Shown: positions 227-44,157 of the stretch, piece by piece | How the letters are laid out: each line of letters opens with the position of its first letter | Position numbering within the stretch: the first letter of the stretch is position 1 | Assembly (NCBI RefSeq): GCF_020193655.1 | Contig: NZ_JADYVE010000001.1 | Location: 558,001 to 622,000 of the forward strand | Origin: Ensifer sp. IC3342 | GTDB taxonomy: Bacteria > Pseudomonadota > Alphaproteobacteria > Rhizobiales > Rhizobiaceae | Direction of reading: 5' to 3' | Length of the DNA: 64,000 bases | Notes under the pieces: generated by a model | What the model was told of the DNA's origin: nothing | The model's input: the letters and a program-made list of their open reading frames with translations, nothing else | Databases searched by the model: none | Program-made: the position numbers and the translations under genes

Positions 227-1327
227 TTACAGAATCTCGGTGGCGGCAATCTTGATGCCGAAACCTTCAAGGCCGACATAGTGGCGCTCGCGCGAGGAAA
301 TGAGGCGGATCGACGTAATGCCGAGGTCCTTGAGGATCTGCGCGCCGAGACCGATTTCCAGCCATTCGCTTTCGCGGGCCCGGGCTTCCGAATGGGCCTC
401 GCGGTCATGCTTGCCCTTGCGCGCCGTTTGTGAGACGCCGACGCCGACGGAGCCCTCGCGCAGATAGACGATGACGCCCCTGCCCTCTCCGGCAATACGT
501 TTCATGATCGCGTCGATCTGACGGTCCCCGCCGAAGACATCCGAACCGACGTTCTCAAGGTGCAGACGAACGGGGATGTCGACACCGTCGCGAATATCGC
601 CGAAGACGACGGCAAGATGCTGCATCGGATCCCACGGGAGCGAATAGGCGTGACCCTTCGCCTTGCCGTAAGGCGTTTCGATCTCGAAGCAATTGCCCTG
701 CTCGATCAGCGTTTCCTTGCGCTGGCGATAGGCGATCAGATCCGCCACCGAGACCTGCTTCAAGCCATGGGTCTCGGCGAAGCTTTCGACCTGCGGGCCA
801 CGCATCACTGTGCCGTCGTCGTTGACGAGCTCGCAGATGACTCCGACCGGCGGGAGGCTCGCGAGCCTGCAGAGGTCCACGGCCGCTTCGGTATGTCCCG
901 AACGCATCAGCACACCGCCCTCGCGCGCCACTAGCGGAAAGATATGGCCCGGGCGGACGAAATCGGCGGGTCCGATGTTCGGATTGGCAAGGTTGCGAAC
1001 GGTCAACGTCCGGTCGTCGGCCGAGATACCGGTGGTGGTTCCGTGCCTGAAATCGACCGAAACGGTGAATGCGGTCGTATGGGCGGAATCGTTCTCCGCC
1101 ACCATCGCATTCAGATTGAGGCGCTTCGCCTCCTCGCGCGGCATCGGCGCACAGACGATGCCGGAGGTGTGGCGGACGATGAAGGCCATCTTTTCAGGCG
1201 TGCAATGCACGGCTGCGACGATCAGGTCCCCCTCGTTCTCGCGGCCGCCGTCATCGGTGACGACGACGATCTCGCCGGCCTCGAAGGCGCGAATGGCGTC
1301 TACGACGCGCTTCTGGTCATACGACAT
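227..1327 (-). CDS. ribBA: RibBA: 3,4-dihydroxy-2-butanone 4-phosphate synthase with a degenerate GTP cyclohydrolase II-like domain
   Basis: A 366-residue protein. The N-terminal ~205 residues are a DHBP synthase domain, which makes the four-carbon riboflavin precursor from ribulose 5-phosphate; the acidic loop DDGGRENEGDL and the RSGHTEAAVDL segment are both present. The C-terminal part has the GTP cyclohydrolase II fold, but the three zinc-binding cysteines are absent: the positions read LENVGSDVFGGDRQID where active enzymes have a Cys and a CxC pair. The C-terminal domain is therefore unlikely to open GTP. The ATG at 1327 has GGGAG upstream; a longer frame would run into aroC. It lies 17 bases behind aroC on the same strand, so the two are probably co-transcribed. 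Confidence 0.9.
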   Translation of the reverse strand: MSYDQKRVVDAIRAFEAGEIVVVTDDGGRENEGDLIVAAVHCTPEKMAFIVRHTSGIVCAPMPREEAKRLNLNAMVAENDSAHTTAFTVSVDFRHGTTTGISADDRTLTVRNLANPNIGPADFVRPGHIFPLVAREGGVLMRSGHTEAAVDLCRLASLPPVGVICELVNDDGTVMRGPQVESFAETHGLKQVSVADLIAYRQRKETLIEQGNCFEIETPYGKAKGHAYSLPWDPMQHLAVVFGDIRDGVDIPVRLHLENVGSDVFGGDRQIDAIMKRIAGEGRGVIVYLREGSVGVGVSQTARKGKHDREAHSEARARESEWLEIGLGAQILKDLGITSIRLISSRERHYVGLEGFGIKIAATEIL

Positions 1328-39350: not shown

Positions 39351-40445
39351 TTACGCCTCGATCTGCACGTCGCCGAGCGGCCGCGAGCAGCAGGCAAGGA
39401 TGTAACCTTCCTCGATCTCGTCATCGAGAATGCCGCCATTGTGGTTCATCTCGACATCGCCGGCGACCTTCATTACGCGACACGTGCCGCAGATGCCGCC
39501 CTCGCAGGCGGCGCCGATCCGGACGCCGTTGGCGCGGGCGGCCTGCAGGATGGTTTGACCTGGCACCACCGTCACGTCCCTGCCGCTCATGGTGAAGGTC
39601 ACCCGCGCCGCCTCCGCCGAGGCCCCGGCGCCGGATCCGGCGCGCACGGCAAGCTCCTCGGCCGCCGGTGCGGCGGCGGGCTGGAAGCTCTCTTCGTGAT
39701 AACGCGCCATATCGAAGCCGGCGCCCTTCAGCATCTCCCTGACGCCGCGCATGAAGGGTTCAGGTCCGCAGCAAAACACCGTCCTCTCCAGGTAGTCCGG
39801 CGCGAGCAGAGGCAATTTCGTCGCGTCGATGCGACCGCGCAGCCCGTGCCAGCCGTGGCGCGCCTCATGGCCTTCGACGAGAAAACCGAGATTGAGCCGC
39901 CGCATCTGGCGGGCGAGAACCTCCAGCTCGGAGCGGAACAGGAGGTCCTCCGGCCGGCGCGCGCAGGAAATGAGGGTGACGTCCGTGTCGGGCGTGCAGT
40001 CGGCCATCCACCGCGTCATAGACATCATCGGCGTGACACCGGAACCGGCCGAGACAAACAGGTATTTCTCACCCGGATGGCGAACGAAGCTGAAATCCCC
40101 GAGCGGCCCGAGCGCCTTGAGCCTCATCCCCGGCTTCAGATTGTCGAACATCCAGCGCGTGCCGATGCTGTCCGGCTGCGCCTTGACGGTAACGGCAACC
40201 GAGAGCGGACGTGATGGCGAGGATGACAGCGTGTAGGTGCGCATAACCGGTTCGTCGCCGACGGGCAGTTCCAGCGTGACGAACTGCCCCGGCAGATAGC
40301 GGAACCAGGCAGGTTTGTCCGAGCGGAAAGTAAAGGTCATCACGTCCGTGGTCTCGATCACGGCCGATATGCATTCGAGCAGGTGCTGCCGATCGATCCA
40401 CGGGTGCAACTCATCGAAATGGCGGAAGGAAGAGCCCATTTCCAT
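39351..40445 (-). CDS. gbcB: GbcB-like reductase (FAD, NAD(P)H and 2Fe-2S ferredoxin domains)
   Basis: A 364-residue electron-transfer protein. The FAD domain has RTYTLSSSP, and the NAD domain has VSAGSGVTPMMSM and CGPEPFMRGV. The C-terminal plant-type ferredoxin domain has CEGGICGTC and a last cysteine in LACCSRPLG. It passes electrons from NAD(P)H to the Rieske oxygenase encoded just upstream. Its ATG is one base past the gbcA stop, so the pair is a tight operon. Related reductases serve choline, carnitine and stachydrine demethylases, so the exact substrate pathway rests on GbcA. Confidence 0.85.
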   Translation of the reverse strand: MEMGSSFRHFDELHPWIDRQHLLECISAVIETTDVMTFTFRSDKPAWFRYLPGQFVTLELPVGDEPVMRTYTLSSSPSRPLSVAVTVKAQPDSIGTRWMFDNLKPGMRLKALGPLGDFSFVRHPGEKYLFVSAGSGVTPMMSMTRWMADCTPDTDVTLISCARRPEDLLFRSELEVLARQMRRLNLGFLVEGHEARHGWHGLRGRIDATKLPLLAPDYLERTVFCCGPEPFMRGVREMLKGAGFDMARYHEESFQPAAAPAAEELAVRAGSGAGASAEAARVTFTMSGRDVTVVPGQTILQAARANGVRIGAACEGGICGTCRVMKVAGDVEMNHNGGILDDEIEEGYILACCSRPLGDVQIEA

Positions 40446-40446
40446 G

Positions 40447-41691
40447 TCATGCCACCCGCGAGAGAGGAGCGGCGTCGCCCTGGAGCCGGCTCTGCATGAA
40501 ATTGCAGTACCATTCGACGAACTGCATCACGCCGCCCTCGTGCTCGACCGAATAGGGGCCCGGCTCATAGACCGGCGAGCGGATGCCAAAAGCGTTTTCC
40601 TCGACGATCTGGCGGTCCTGGTCGTTCGTCTCGGTCCAGACGTGAATAAGATCCTCGATGGTGTAGTCGACACCTTCGATGGCATCCTTGCTGACCAGCC
40701 ATTTGGTGGTGACCTGCGTCAGTTCCGGCCCGAGCGGCAGGACCCGGAAGGTGATCGCGTGATCGCCGAGCACATGGTTCCAGGTGGTCGGGTAGTGGAA
40801 GAGCAATAGCGTGCCGATCCCGCGTTCGCTGACGCCCGCCGAAAGCGGTTTGCGGACGGCCGCCTGCCCGGACATGGTGTAGCTCTCGGCACCGTTGATC
40901 AGCGGCATCCTCGTCATCCGGAACTGGCCGGTCGGCGCAATCCTGAAGGCGCTCGGCAGGCCCGCCGCCTCGCACTTTTCCCAATGGGCGCCGATCTCCG
41001 GATCGTTCATCGCACCCTGGACACCCGTCACGGTCGGGGCTTCCGGGTAGGTGCGGCAAAGCTCCGGATGGTTGGCGGCGCAGTGGTAGCACTCGCGGTT
41101 GTTCTCCCAGACAAGCTTCCAATTGCCCTTCTCGACGATCGTGCTCTCATAGGCGACCTTGGTTTCACCAAGGCGATGCGGCGCGAGGTAGGCTGCGACC
41201 GTTTCACGGAACGGTTGGAAGTCCATTGGCTTGTCGGCGAAGCTGATGAAGATGTAGCCGCCAACCATTTCGCAATGGACCGGCTTCAGGCTGTGCTGTG
41301 CCGGGTCGAAGCCTTCGGGCATCTGCCGCGCAAAAAGCAGCTTGCCGTCCAGTTCGTAGGTCCACTGGTGATAGGGACAGACGAGCTTGGCCGATGAGCC
41401 CCTGTGCTGCGTGCAGACGCGCGAGCCGCGGTGGCGGCAGGAATTGTGGAGCGCCCGGATCATCCCCTGCCGGTCGCGGACGACGACGATCGGATAGTCG
41501 CCGACCTGGACGGTGAAGTAGTTCCCGGCTTTCGGAATTTCGCAGTCGTGGCCGATGAAGAGCCAATCCTTGTACCAGATGTGCTCGAGGTCTTGCCGGT
41601 AATAGTCCGGGTCGGTGTAGAAGGCCCGATCGAGGCTATAGCCCTCACGGCGGTTTGTCAGCCGGCGCAGCATGTCGTTCTGAATGTCCAT
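40447..41691 (-). CDS. gbcA: GbcA-like Rieske oxygenase (glycine betaine demethylase type)
   Basis: A 414-residue ring-hydroxylating-type oxygenase alpha subunit. The Rieske 2Fe-2S motif is Cys85-x-His87 then Cys105-x2-His108 (CRHRGS, CPYHQW), with 17 residues between. The mononuclear iron site is NNRECYHCAANHPE (His203, His208). Together with the adjacent reductase it matches GbcAB, which oxidatively demethylates glycine betaine to dimethylglycine plus formaldehyde; stachydrine or carnitine demethylases are the main alternatives. ATG 41691 is preceded by GAGGACAGGAC. A cobalamin riboswitch and a ribosome-site hairpin lie in its leader. Confidence 0.85.
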   Translation of the reverse strand: MDIQNDMLRRLTNRREGYSLDRAFYTDPDYYRQDLEHIWYKDWLFIGHDCEIPKAGNYFTVQVGDYPIVVVRDRQGMIRALHNSCRHRGSRVCTQHRGSSAKLVCPYHQWTYELDGKLLFARQMPEGFDPAQHSLKPVHCEMVGGYIFISFADKPMDFQPFRETVAAYLAPHRLGETKVAYESTIVEKGNWKLVWENNRECYHCAANHPELCRTYPEAPTVTGVQGAMNDPEIGAHWEKCEAAGLPSAFRIAPTGQFRMTRMPLINGAESYTMSGQAAVRKPLSAGVSERGIGTLLLFHYPTTWNHVLGDHAITFRVLPLGPELTQVTTKWLVSKDAIEGVDYTIEDLIHVWTETNDQDRQIVEENAFGIRSPVYEPGPYSVEHEGGVMQFVEWYCNFMQSRLQGDAAPLSRVA

Positions 41692-41692
41692 G

Positions 41693-41731
41693 TCCTGTCC
41701 TCGTTCATCAGTTCGGAGAGGCAGGACAGGA
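41693..41731 (-). promoter_or_regulatory. Hairpin that sequesters the gbcA ribosome binding site
   Basis: On the minus strand TCCTGTCCT (41731-41723) is perfectly complementary to AGGACAGGA (41701-41693), which contains the ribosome binding site and ends one base before the gbcA ATG. The loop is 21 bases. The nine-base stem would block translation initiation, a plausible expression platform for the upstream riboswitch. Confidence 0.65.
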
Positions 41732-41813
41732 ACCAACGCCGACAATGATGCCGGCGCGTCAAAGGCTCCGATCCGGCTGCCCGCCGCAACCAGTTACGGT
41801 CGATTTTTCGTCC

Positions 41814-41986
41814 CAAGGCTGGTTTCCGGGCTCTGGAGCGGCCCCTAGAAGGGACCCGCCCGGCGCCTTCCCGGACACACAGTCCAGTGGCCCTTTGCCG
41901 TGGCTTTCGCTCCACCACCGTTGCGGGGGCAGCGCCGGGATTTGACCGGCTTCCCAATTCTCCGCCCTCCCTGGAGCGGCACCTTG
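41814..41986 (-). promoter_or_regulatory. Cobalamin (B12) riboswitch upstream of gbcA
   Basis: Read on the minus strand, the RNA starts CAAGGTGCCGC and contains GGGAAGCCGGTCAAATCCCG, GCTGCCCCCGCAACGGT and GCCACTGG. GGGAAGGC follows, and the RNA ends with the B12 box GAGCCCGGAAACCAGCC. CAAGG at the 5' end pairs with CCTTG after the B12 box to close helix P1. These elements in this order are the conserved core of adenosylcobalamin riboswitches. It ends 122 bases before gbcA, with no other gene between. Downstream CTGGTT (around 41790) could pair with AACCAG of the B12 box as an alternative fold. Confidence 0.92.
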
Positions 41987-42009
41987 AGTGTCCATATCTA
42001 AGCGCGCGC

Positions 42010-42916: not shown

Positions 42917-42940
42917 CCCAACGCGGTCGGCATTGCTTTT

Positions 42941-43108
42941 ATGCATGTCGCCGTCCCAAATCCGCTGCGCACTTTTGGACGACATGCGCTCCTTGTTTTC
43001 ATGCACGTCGTCGCCCCCAAAACCGCTGCGCACTTTTGGGCGGCATGCGGTTCCTGTTTTAATGCATGCCGTTGTCCCAAAACCGCTGCGCACTTTTGGG
43101 CGGCATGC
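42941..43108. repeat. Three tandem copies of a ~60-base hairpin repeat
   Basis: Copies at 42943-42987, 43003-43048 and 43064-43108 share the design GCATGTCG..CCCAAAACCGCTGCGCACTTTTGGG..CGACATGC with slight changes. Each can fold into a two-part hairpin: outer arms GCATGNCG/CGNCATGC and inner arms CCCAAAA/TTTTGGG. Spacers of 15 bases separate them. The sequence style is a known rhizobial intergenic palindrome; the tandem triple arrangement is unusual. Confidence 0.85.
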
Positions 43109-43182: not shown

Positions 43183-44157
43183 ATGGCCGAAATTATCGAT
43201 ACACGCACAGAGCCGGACCGGGCGATCGAGCAAGCCTGTGCCGTTCTTTCCGAGGGCGAGCCGGTCGCGATCCCGACGGAGACGGTTTACGGCCTTGCGG
43301 CGGATGCGACGAACCCCGACGCGATCAGCCGCATTTACGAGATGAAAGGCCGGCCCCGTTTCAATCCGTTGATCTGCCACGTCTCGGATATGGCGATGGC
43401 CGAGGCGCATGTGACGTTCGACCCGATTTCGCGCCAGCTTGCGGAGGCCTTCTGGCCGGGTCCCCTAACACTTATCCTGCCGCAGCGGCCGGAAAGTACA
43501 GTCCATGCACTCGCTTCCGCCGGGCTCAATACGCTTGGCGTCCGCATGCCTGATGGCTTTTCACAGCACGTAATCGCTCGCTTCGGACGCCCGCTTGCAG
43601 CGCCGAGTGCCAACACGTCCGGCAAGATCAGCCCGACCAGCGCAGCTCATGTCGAAGCCGACCTCGGCTCCAAGCTGAAACTCATCCTCGACGCCGGCCC
43701 GGCTGAGATCGGCCTCGAGTCGACGATCATCAAGATTGAAGACGGCACGCTGCGGCTCCTCAGGCCCGGTGGGTTGGACGCCAGCGTGATCGAGAAACTC
43801 ACCGGGCGCGAGGTCGTGCGGCCCGAAAGCGCAGGCGCGACGATTGAGGCGCCGGGCATGCTTGCGTCACACTACGCTCCAGGCGCAACCGTTAGATTGA
43901 ATGCCGAGCACGTGCGAGCGGGAGAAGCATTAATCCGCTTCGGCGGCAGGCCGCTTCCCGGCGAGGGCGAGGCGACGATCGTGCTGGACCTGAGCCCCCG
44001 CGGCAACCTTCGCGAGGCGGCCGCCAACCTCTTCGATTACATGAAACGAGCGGATGCGAGCGGCGCTAGCACGATCGCCTTCGGCCGCGTTCCGGAAGAA
44101 GGCCTCGGGGAAGCAATCATCGATCGCCTGCAGCGGGCAGCGGCGCCCAGAGGCTGA
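43183..44157 (+). CDS. sua5: L-threonylcarbamoyladenylate synthase, Sua5 type
   Basis: A 324-residue enzyme making threonylcarbamoyl-AMP, the first step of t6A37 tRNA modification. The YrdC domain covers ~1-200: PTETVYGLAADAT, KGRPRFNPLICHV and PSANTSGKISPTSA, with the KxR and SxN nucleotide-binding motifs. A C-terminal Sua5 domain follows (GMLASHYAPGATVRL), which distinguishes it from shorter TsaC. It precedes a FAD-linked dehydrogenase by 29 bases, so co-transcription is likely. Confidence 0.93.
   Translation: MAEIIDTRTEPDRAIEQACAVLSEGEPVAIPTETVYGLAADATNPDAISRIYEMKGRPRFNPLICHVSDMAMAEAHVTFDPISRQLAEAFWPGPLTLILPQRPESTVHALASAGLNTLGVRMPDGFSQHVIARFGRPLAAPSANTSGKISPTSAAHVEADLGSKLKLILDAGPAEIGLESTIIKIEDGTLRLLRPGGLDASVIEKLTGREVVRPESAGATIEAPGMLASHYAPGATVRLNAEHVRAGEALIRFGGRPLPGEGEATIVLDLSPRGNLREAAANLFDYMKRADASGASTIAFGRVPEEGLGEAIIDRLQRAAAPRG

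Follow-up and report, generated by a model that had tools for sequence, protein, structure and literature searches.

The 64,000-nucleotide stretch of Ensifer sp. IC3342 analysed here (contig NZ_JADYVE010000001.1, positions 558,001 to 622,000, referred to as the window) carries a cobalamin riboswitch in front of a two-gene operon resembling gbcAB, which encodes a Rieske oxygenase and its reductase. The same genome holds genes resembling the corrinoid betaine methyltransferase MtgB/MtgC, and among related genomes the riboswitch and these genes are absent together. It is quite probable that a working cobalamin riboswitch makes GbcAB the B12-independent isozyme of the corrinoid MtgB/MtgC betaine route. 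When B12 is plentiful, the riboswitch would keep gbcAB off, and glycine betaine, or a closely related quaternary amine, would be demethylated by the corrinoid-dependent MtgB/MtgC; when B12 is short, GbcAB would be made, an enzyme that requires O2 and NAD(P)H but not B12. These presumably redundant routes would be a further isozyme pair alongside MetH/MetE and the ribonucleotide reductases, but one that serves osmolyte catabolism. Control is probably exerted at translation via an L5-L13 contact and Shine-Dalgarno pairing.

The riboswitch, its probable platform and its operon

The whole 64-kb window was searched against Rfam with cmscan, and a single match above gathering (31.5 bits) was found, the cobalamin riboswitch aptamer RF00174 at 41800..42001 on the minus strand (109.9 bits, E 1.2e-26, model positions 1-189 of 189). 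A prediction made earlier from the letters of the window had placed a B12 riboswitch in the gbcA leader with no gene between, and had proposed the Rfam cobalamin covariance-model search as a check. The full-length, significant minus-strand match at 42001-41800 bears the element out, whereas the predicted 5' limit (41986) fell 15 bases short of the model end at 42001. From the 3' end of the aptamer to the gbcA ATG at 41691 there are 108 nt and no gene. The L5 loop core GCTGCCCCCGCAAC was read in the sequence at 41933-41920 (minus strand), with an identical or near copy in the relatives whose leaders matched the riboswitch regular expression (regex). The B12 box GCCACTG was located at 41891-41885 (minus strand) from the sequence and the covariance-model alignment. 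The cobalamin riboswitch in front of the gbcA-like operon is real and conserved.

Downstream of the aptamer, a hairpin at 41793-41773 (minus strand) bears the loop GCGGCGGGC, which can base-pair with the L5 core GCTGCCCCCGCAAC. This is probably the L13 partner of L5 in the kissing loop known from cobalamin riboswitches. Of 145 riboswitch leaders, 103 matched a strict L13-type hairpin pattern and 42 did not, vs 0 matches in 61 leaders without a riboswitch, the counts being of leaders from overlapping genome sets and not of independent genomes. The stem pairs of the hairpin differ in type across 67 tabulated cases, which were chosen for at least 5 pairs.

Next to the start codon, the Shine-Dalgarno sequence AGGACAGGA (41701-41693) is predicted to pair with TCCTGTCCT (41731-41723) in a hairpin at 41693..41731 on the minus strand (leader fold, z -2.73), which may serve as a translational platform in this leader. 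Among relatives the median paired probability of the Shine-Dalgarno sequence was 0.69 in 90 riboswitch leaders vs 0.64 in 36 others (p 0.058). With so weak a difference, Shine-Dalgarno sequestration was rejected as family-wide proof, and control at translation is therefore something we infer.

The gbcA-like gene (40447..41691, minus strand) encodes a 414-amino-acid Rieske oxygenase subunit with Pfam domains Rieske and Ring_hydroxyl_A and a Rieske motif from C85; it thus has the Rieske and catalytic domains of a quaternary-amine N-demethylase of the GbcA/Stc2 type. The gbcB-like gene (39351..40445, minus strand) encodes a 364-amino-acid flavin/ferredoxin reductase subunit with FAD_binding_6, NAD_binding_1 and Fer2. 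The two are separated by a 1-nt gap and form a two-gene operon, the next downstream gene lying on the opposite strand. The start of gbcA was set at ATG 41691 because all 80 relatives described below align from its first residue; the upstream TTG at 41745, given in the list of open reading frames, was set aside on the same ground.

Joint absence of the riboswitch and the proposed corrinoid partner

An isozyme reading requires a B12-dependent counterpart in the same genome, and MttB-family and MtgC-like genes are present that would play this role. Four MttB-family genes were found. One of them, on contig C49, stands with a standalone B12-binding protein, a DUF1638 gene and a betaine-homocysteine-methyltransferase-like (MtgE/Bmt-like) gene that scored 579 bits vs a cut-off of 338. 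This locus lies about 6-16 kb from cob genes, and its arrangement matches the Sinorhizobium meliloti MtgBCDE locus given in the accessible text of PMC12478193. The label MtgC-like rests on that S. meliloti locus, and the protein scored 212.4 and 178.8 bits against NF047996 and NF047995, below their cut-offs of 370 and 310. Another MttB gene lies 57 kb from gbcAB and adjoins an NADH:flavin oxidoreductase. With these genes the genome encodes an MtgB/MtgC/MtgE-like corrinoid betaine methyltransferase.

Seven cobalamin-riboswitch matches, six of them above cut-off, were found in the whole genome (7.42 Mb, 115 contigs). Read from the open reading frames, and with the binding protein, MetE and NrdE also checked against Pfam, the targets are a B12-type ABC transporter, metE, nrdIEF, the window operon, a bluB-like gene, a cbtAB-like target and, for the weak match, a cob operon. 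Among enzymes that stand in for B12-dependent isozymes, MetE and NrdEF are classical examples. Their genes form a cluster of such isozymes on the 92-kb contig C24 (60000-79000), where metE and nrdIEF each have a cobalamin riboswitch of their own, the two riboswitches lying about 3.5 kb apart.

For a first comparison, the best 80 gbcA relatives were taken as a named set, and riboswitch motifs were sought by regex within 600 bp upstream of gbcA; they were present in 55 and absent in 25. The 25 riboswitch-less loci and one further locus (L039) were also run through cmscan, the other 54 positives resting on the regex. No RF00174 match above gathering was found by cmscan in the 25 riboswitch-less leaders, and L039 has a degenerate riboswitch of 57.9 bits. 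The MttB family was detected in 52 of 52 riboswitch genomes (24/24 and 28/28; L043 and L054 were left out of this count), in 1 of 25 riboswitch-less genomes and not in the degenerate case (0/1, L039). MtgC at 84-99% identity followed the same course, with 24/24, 1/25 and 0/1. The riboswitch is accordingly missing where the counterpart is missing, 24 of the 25 riboswitch-less named genomes having no MttB. Among six riboswitch-less loci compared by eye with the window, five (L034, L046, L053, L062 and L064; not L097) share the upstream neighbours of the window operon and so represent the same locus. The tree of the named set alone gave 3 independent pairs, too few contrasts.

At the Rhizobium-type loci L058, L062-L064, L070, L071, L073-L077, L080, L082, L084 and L086, gbcA stands without an adjacent gbcB. 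At L100 and L101 the riboswitch is present and the adjacent gbcB is absent.

An order-wide sample held a close orthologue in only 10 of 150 genomes, the window's own included, so a family sample was used for the second comparison; it overlaps the named set and is not independent of it. Of the 297 family genomes, 120 have a close gbcA, and the counts below take in 119 of these, with the window's own left out. The gbcA riboswitch is present in 84 of the 119, so that the survey of relatives suggested by the original prediction did find the same arrangement before the orthologous gene; this is more than chance. Among the 84 positive leaders, 52 were run through cmscan and all were confirmed, the other 32 being called by regex; L128 and L151 were counted as positive by cmscan with no regex match. 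All 33 leaders from genomes lacking both features, and two more (L179 and L190), were run through cmscan as well. More than one family of the order, indeed several, keeps the aptamer before gbcA. The MttB counts leave out six leaders from beyond the family, 5 with and 1 without a riboswitch.

Both riboswitch and MttB were found in 80 of the 119 family genomes and neither in 33, while 4 had a degenerate riboswitch only and 2 had MttB only; the 37 MttB-less genomes with gbcA thus comprise 33 without a riboswitch and 4 with a degenerate one. When the genomes were grouped into 48 genera, 34 were uniform for both features, 10 uniform for neither, 1 had the riboswitch only, 1 had MttB only and 2 were mixed. 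This gives 44 uniform concordant and 2 uniform discordant genera, and in the 2 mixed genera all six species are concordant. Dependent evolution was preferred over independent evolution on the gbcA tree in our own four-state likelihood test (likelihood ratio 47.6, 4 degrees of freedom, p about 1e-9), with a riboswitch-loss rate of 17.8 without MttB vs 0.1 with MttB, about 170-fold. Independent pairs were taken on starred branches. Among pairs differing in MttB, 5.7 of 6 went the same way and 0 the opposite way; among pairs differing in the riboswitch, the figures were 5.9 of 7 and 0 (sign test, p 0.031-0.0625).

The degenerate riboswitches belong to one genus (L142, L144, L145 and L147, and also L039). 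They share the core GCTGCGCCCGC and show no pattern-matching L13-type hairpin, and no GCCACTG box was found in the leaders of L142, L144, L145 and L147. This looks like a riboswitch caught in decay.

It seems rather likely that the riboswitch chooses between chemically unrelated osmolyte routes (MtgBCD vs GbcAB), that this choice is widespread in rhizobia and their relatives and that the sensor decays after the corrinoid route is lost. The original prediction had remarked that B12 riboswitches normally control B12-independent isozymes among other targets, but no Rieske oxygenases; our results suggest that the oxygenase of the window is one of these isozymes.

Several observations weigh against the isozyme reading. 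Ciceribacter lividus (L046) has MttB and MtgC and no gbcA riboswitch, and two family genomes of one genus (L179 and L190) have MttB and no gbcA riboswitch. A degenerate riboswitch of 56-61 bits persists in four congeneric genomes that have no detected MttB, and in L151 the riboswitch (68.8 bits) has an altered L5 core and no GCCACTG box, yet MttB is present. The adjacent gbcB is missing at 15 of 25 riboswitch-less named loci vs 2 of 55 riboswitch loci; part of the signal could therefore come from gbcA having taken on another role at the former. The phylogeny follows gbcA rather than the species and was built by a quick method. At most 4 MttB candidates per genome were scored in the family search, so single MttB genes may be missed. 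MttB is moreover a superfamily, a match to which need not be the betaine-using member, and MtgD was not identified in this genome.

In one leader (L119), two back-to-back cobalamin riboswitches were seen, at 317-113 (minus) and 474-675 (plus); the second scored 136 bits and is directed away from gbcA, its target gene lying outside the stretch analysed.

Substrate and competing explanations

The best NCBIfam match of the oxygenase was GbcA NF058607 (510.1 bits, below the curated cut-off of 670), and that of the reductase was GbcB NF058606 (397 bits, below the curated cut-off of 500). The nearest solved structures of the oxygenase are 3n0q, 3vca and 4qup, the latter two being Stc2 structures. 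Stc2, the stachydrine demethylase, was represented by an S. meliloti pSymA protein whose sequence equals that of PDB 3vca over its 395 residues. A second copy in this genome, on contig C71, groups with Stc2 in the tree. The GbcA model gave 495 bits for the Stc2 protein, 487 for the C71 paralogue and 501-535 for members of the window clade, all below cut-off. As Stc2-group scores of 495-502 are as high as those of the window clade, the model does not separate the two, and its score was rejected as proof of substrate. An identity of the window enzyme with Stc2 was likewise rejected, a tree branch with support of 100/99 parting the window clade from the Stc2 group.

Gene context was taken from orthologues. 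The P. versutus plasmid orthologue (69%) has as neighbours a GlxA-type regulator, EtfAB, folD, an FAD oxidoreductase, fdhA and a BCCT transporter, and the pAt1D1609a orthologue has fdhA and a glycine-betaine ABC transporter. Both lie inside the window clade in the tree, and neither the L5 core nor CCACTG was found in the 600 nt upstream of them. In the Stc2 group, a Salipiger homologue has a GlxA-type regulator, EtfAB, folD and an FAD oxidoreductase beside it, and a betaine-binding protein is encoded close to a Phaeobacter homologue; next to the window operon itself there is no betaine gene. That Stc2-group homologues have such similar neighbours weakens context as proof of glycine betaine. 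Glycine betaine is the favoured, not proven, substrate of the window enzyme.

The alternative that survives best is a variant of the favoured explanation, in which the same isozyme logic would apply to another quaternary amine (proline-betaine, a carnitine-like compound or another betaine) and to another MttB member. It agrees with the lack of separation by the GbcA model, with the similar neighbours of Stc2-group homologues and with the several MttB paralogues held by many genomes. Against it speak the genes around the P. versutus and pAt1D1609a orthologues and the presence of a separate Stc2 orthologue in this genome. We regard the variant as a real but lesser chance, one that overlaps with that of the favoured explanation.

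The riboswitch might also serve methionine or one-carbon balance. Low B12 would stall MetH and the split MtgCDE synthase, and GbcAB would supply one-carbon units derived from formaldehyde instead of replacing betaine demethylation itself. In R. pomeroyi, according to the accessible text of PMC12478193, MtgC and MtgD take part in making methionine as well as in demethylating betaine; an MtgE/Bmt-like gene is present here, and metE likewise stands behind a riboswitch. The pressure from MetH would persist, however, where the riboswitch is gone together with MttB/MtgC, as the MtgC query hit MetH-sized frames in every one of the 25 named genomes without the riboswitch. This explanation is unlikely. 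It relates to the methyl-group economy raised in the original prediction, which points the right way in being B12-sensitive, but with MetH named as the partner in place of the MtgBCD route.

The same prediction had offered a feedback loop in which betaine supplies glycine, hence 5-aminolevulinate and corrin, and B12 in turn shuts down betaine breakdown. Cob genes are present in this genome, and betaine was stated there to raise B12 yield in an industrial Ensifer. With such a loop, every corrin-making genome should have the riboswitch. As controls we took the 25 named genomes without it: each has 2-7 other cobalamin-riboswitch matches (E 0.001 or better), numbers that are lower bounds since 58-59 candidates per genome were scored and that include some matches under cut-off. 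CobQ, the single marker of corrin synthesis used, is present in 25 of 25; 11 of the 29 CobQ matches have one stop within the matched stretch (open frames of at least 486 residues). B12 regulation in general thus persists in the riboswitch-less genomes, and so, judged by this single marker, does corrin synthesis. A precursor loop ought to be just as useful to them, and it does not predict the joint absence of riboswitch and MttB/MtgC. Corrin-precursor feedback was rejected as the main reason and is very improbable.

Least credible of all is a passenger riboswitch bypassed by a promoter in the 108 nt between aptamer and ATG, given that the aptamer is kept in several families and is missing or degenerate where MttB is absent, and that the L13-type hairpin is found with the riboswitch (103/145) and not in other leaders (0/61).

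Elsewhere in the window, a tandem repeat (period 61, 2.9 copies) lies at 42937-43108, shortly upstream of a Sua5-like gene at 43183.

Relation to known systems and implications

Pseudomonas gbc genes respond to GbdR. The GbcAB of Pseudomonas and Chromohalobacter is a two-subunit Rieske oxygenase with a flavin-ferredoxin reductase, as in the window operon; unlike these, the window pair scores below the curated cut-offs and its leader has a cobalamin riboswitch. The metE and nrd riboswitches, both present in this genome, belong to the same RF00174 aptamer family and share the sparing of a B12-free enzyme. Their targets are biosynthetic, whereas that of the window is a Rieske mono-oxygenase with a probable role in osmolyte catabolism.

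In S. meliloti, a cobalamin riboswitch upstream of SMc00982 is noted as an Rfam entry in PMC2245857 (2007), and the 637-nt intergenic region between SMc00983 and SMc00982 is listed with a cobalamin riboswitch in PMC2573895 (2008). The gbcA leader of S. meliloti Ak57 (L243) equals the arrangement SMc00983< riboswitch> SMc00982> in intergenic length and orientation, and the riboswitch motifs were seen in it by eye. By this arrangement SMc00982 is likely the orthologue of the window gbcA and the element the same, given without function or partner enzyme in the accessible parts of both papers. The riboswitch before SMc00982 was thus previously listed and unexplained; the aptamer family is known, and the target and its pairing with a partner are new. 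No paper linking GbcAB to a cobalamin riboswitch, or describing a choice between GbcAB and MtgBCD, was found among the papers listed from open-licence PubMed Central, outside which most subscription journals lie. In the available portion of PMC2848018, SMc00982 is described as 'likely encoding a dioxygenase' and its transcript level is reduced when hfq is mutated, which may point to another layer of control at the RNA level; SMc00981 is called a putative ferredoxin protein in that of PMC12542648.

The proposed B12-dependent partner is the cobalamin-dependent betaine demethylase/methionine synthase MtgBCDE, whose S. meliloti locus the C49 locus resembles. In the accessible text of PMC12478193, R. 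pomeroyi mtgC is required for betaine demethylation and methionine synthesis, and MtgBCDE of S. meliloti is co-located with the cobalamin operon. A further betaine-demethylating route inferred in S. meliloti by Barra et al. 2006 is assigned there to MtgBCD. The same text has 'riboswitch' only in a reference title on SAR11 glycine riboswitches and draws no regulatory link between GbcAB and MtgBCDE.

If the isozyme reading is true, a catabolic isozyme pair is added to the cobalamin riboswitch regulon, and what becomes of a major osmolyte of plants and soil is tied to B12 status. GbcAB would be an additional, conditional betaine route of S. meliloti besides MtgBCD, which could explain how it escaped notice in B12-replete laboratory cells. 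The gbcA riboswitch could also mark genomes that use the MttB/MtgC route alongside GbcAB.

A precedent is the cobalamin riboswitch of the ole1 fatty-acid desaturase, for which a so far unknown isozyme pair was argued from the riboswitch. In the accessible text of that report (PMC2211319) the B12-dependent partner is hypothetical, whereas here a candidate partner co-occurs with the riboswitch across genomes.

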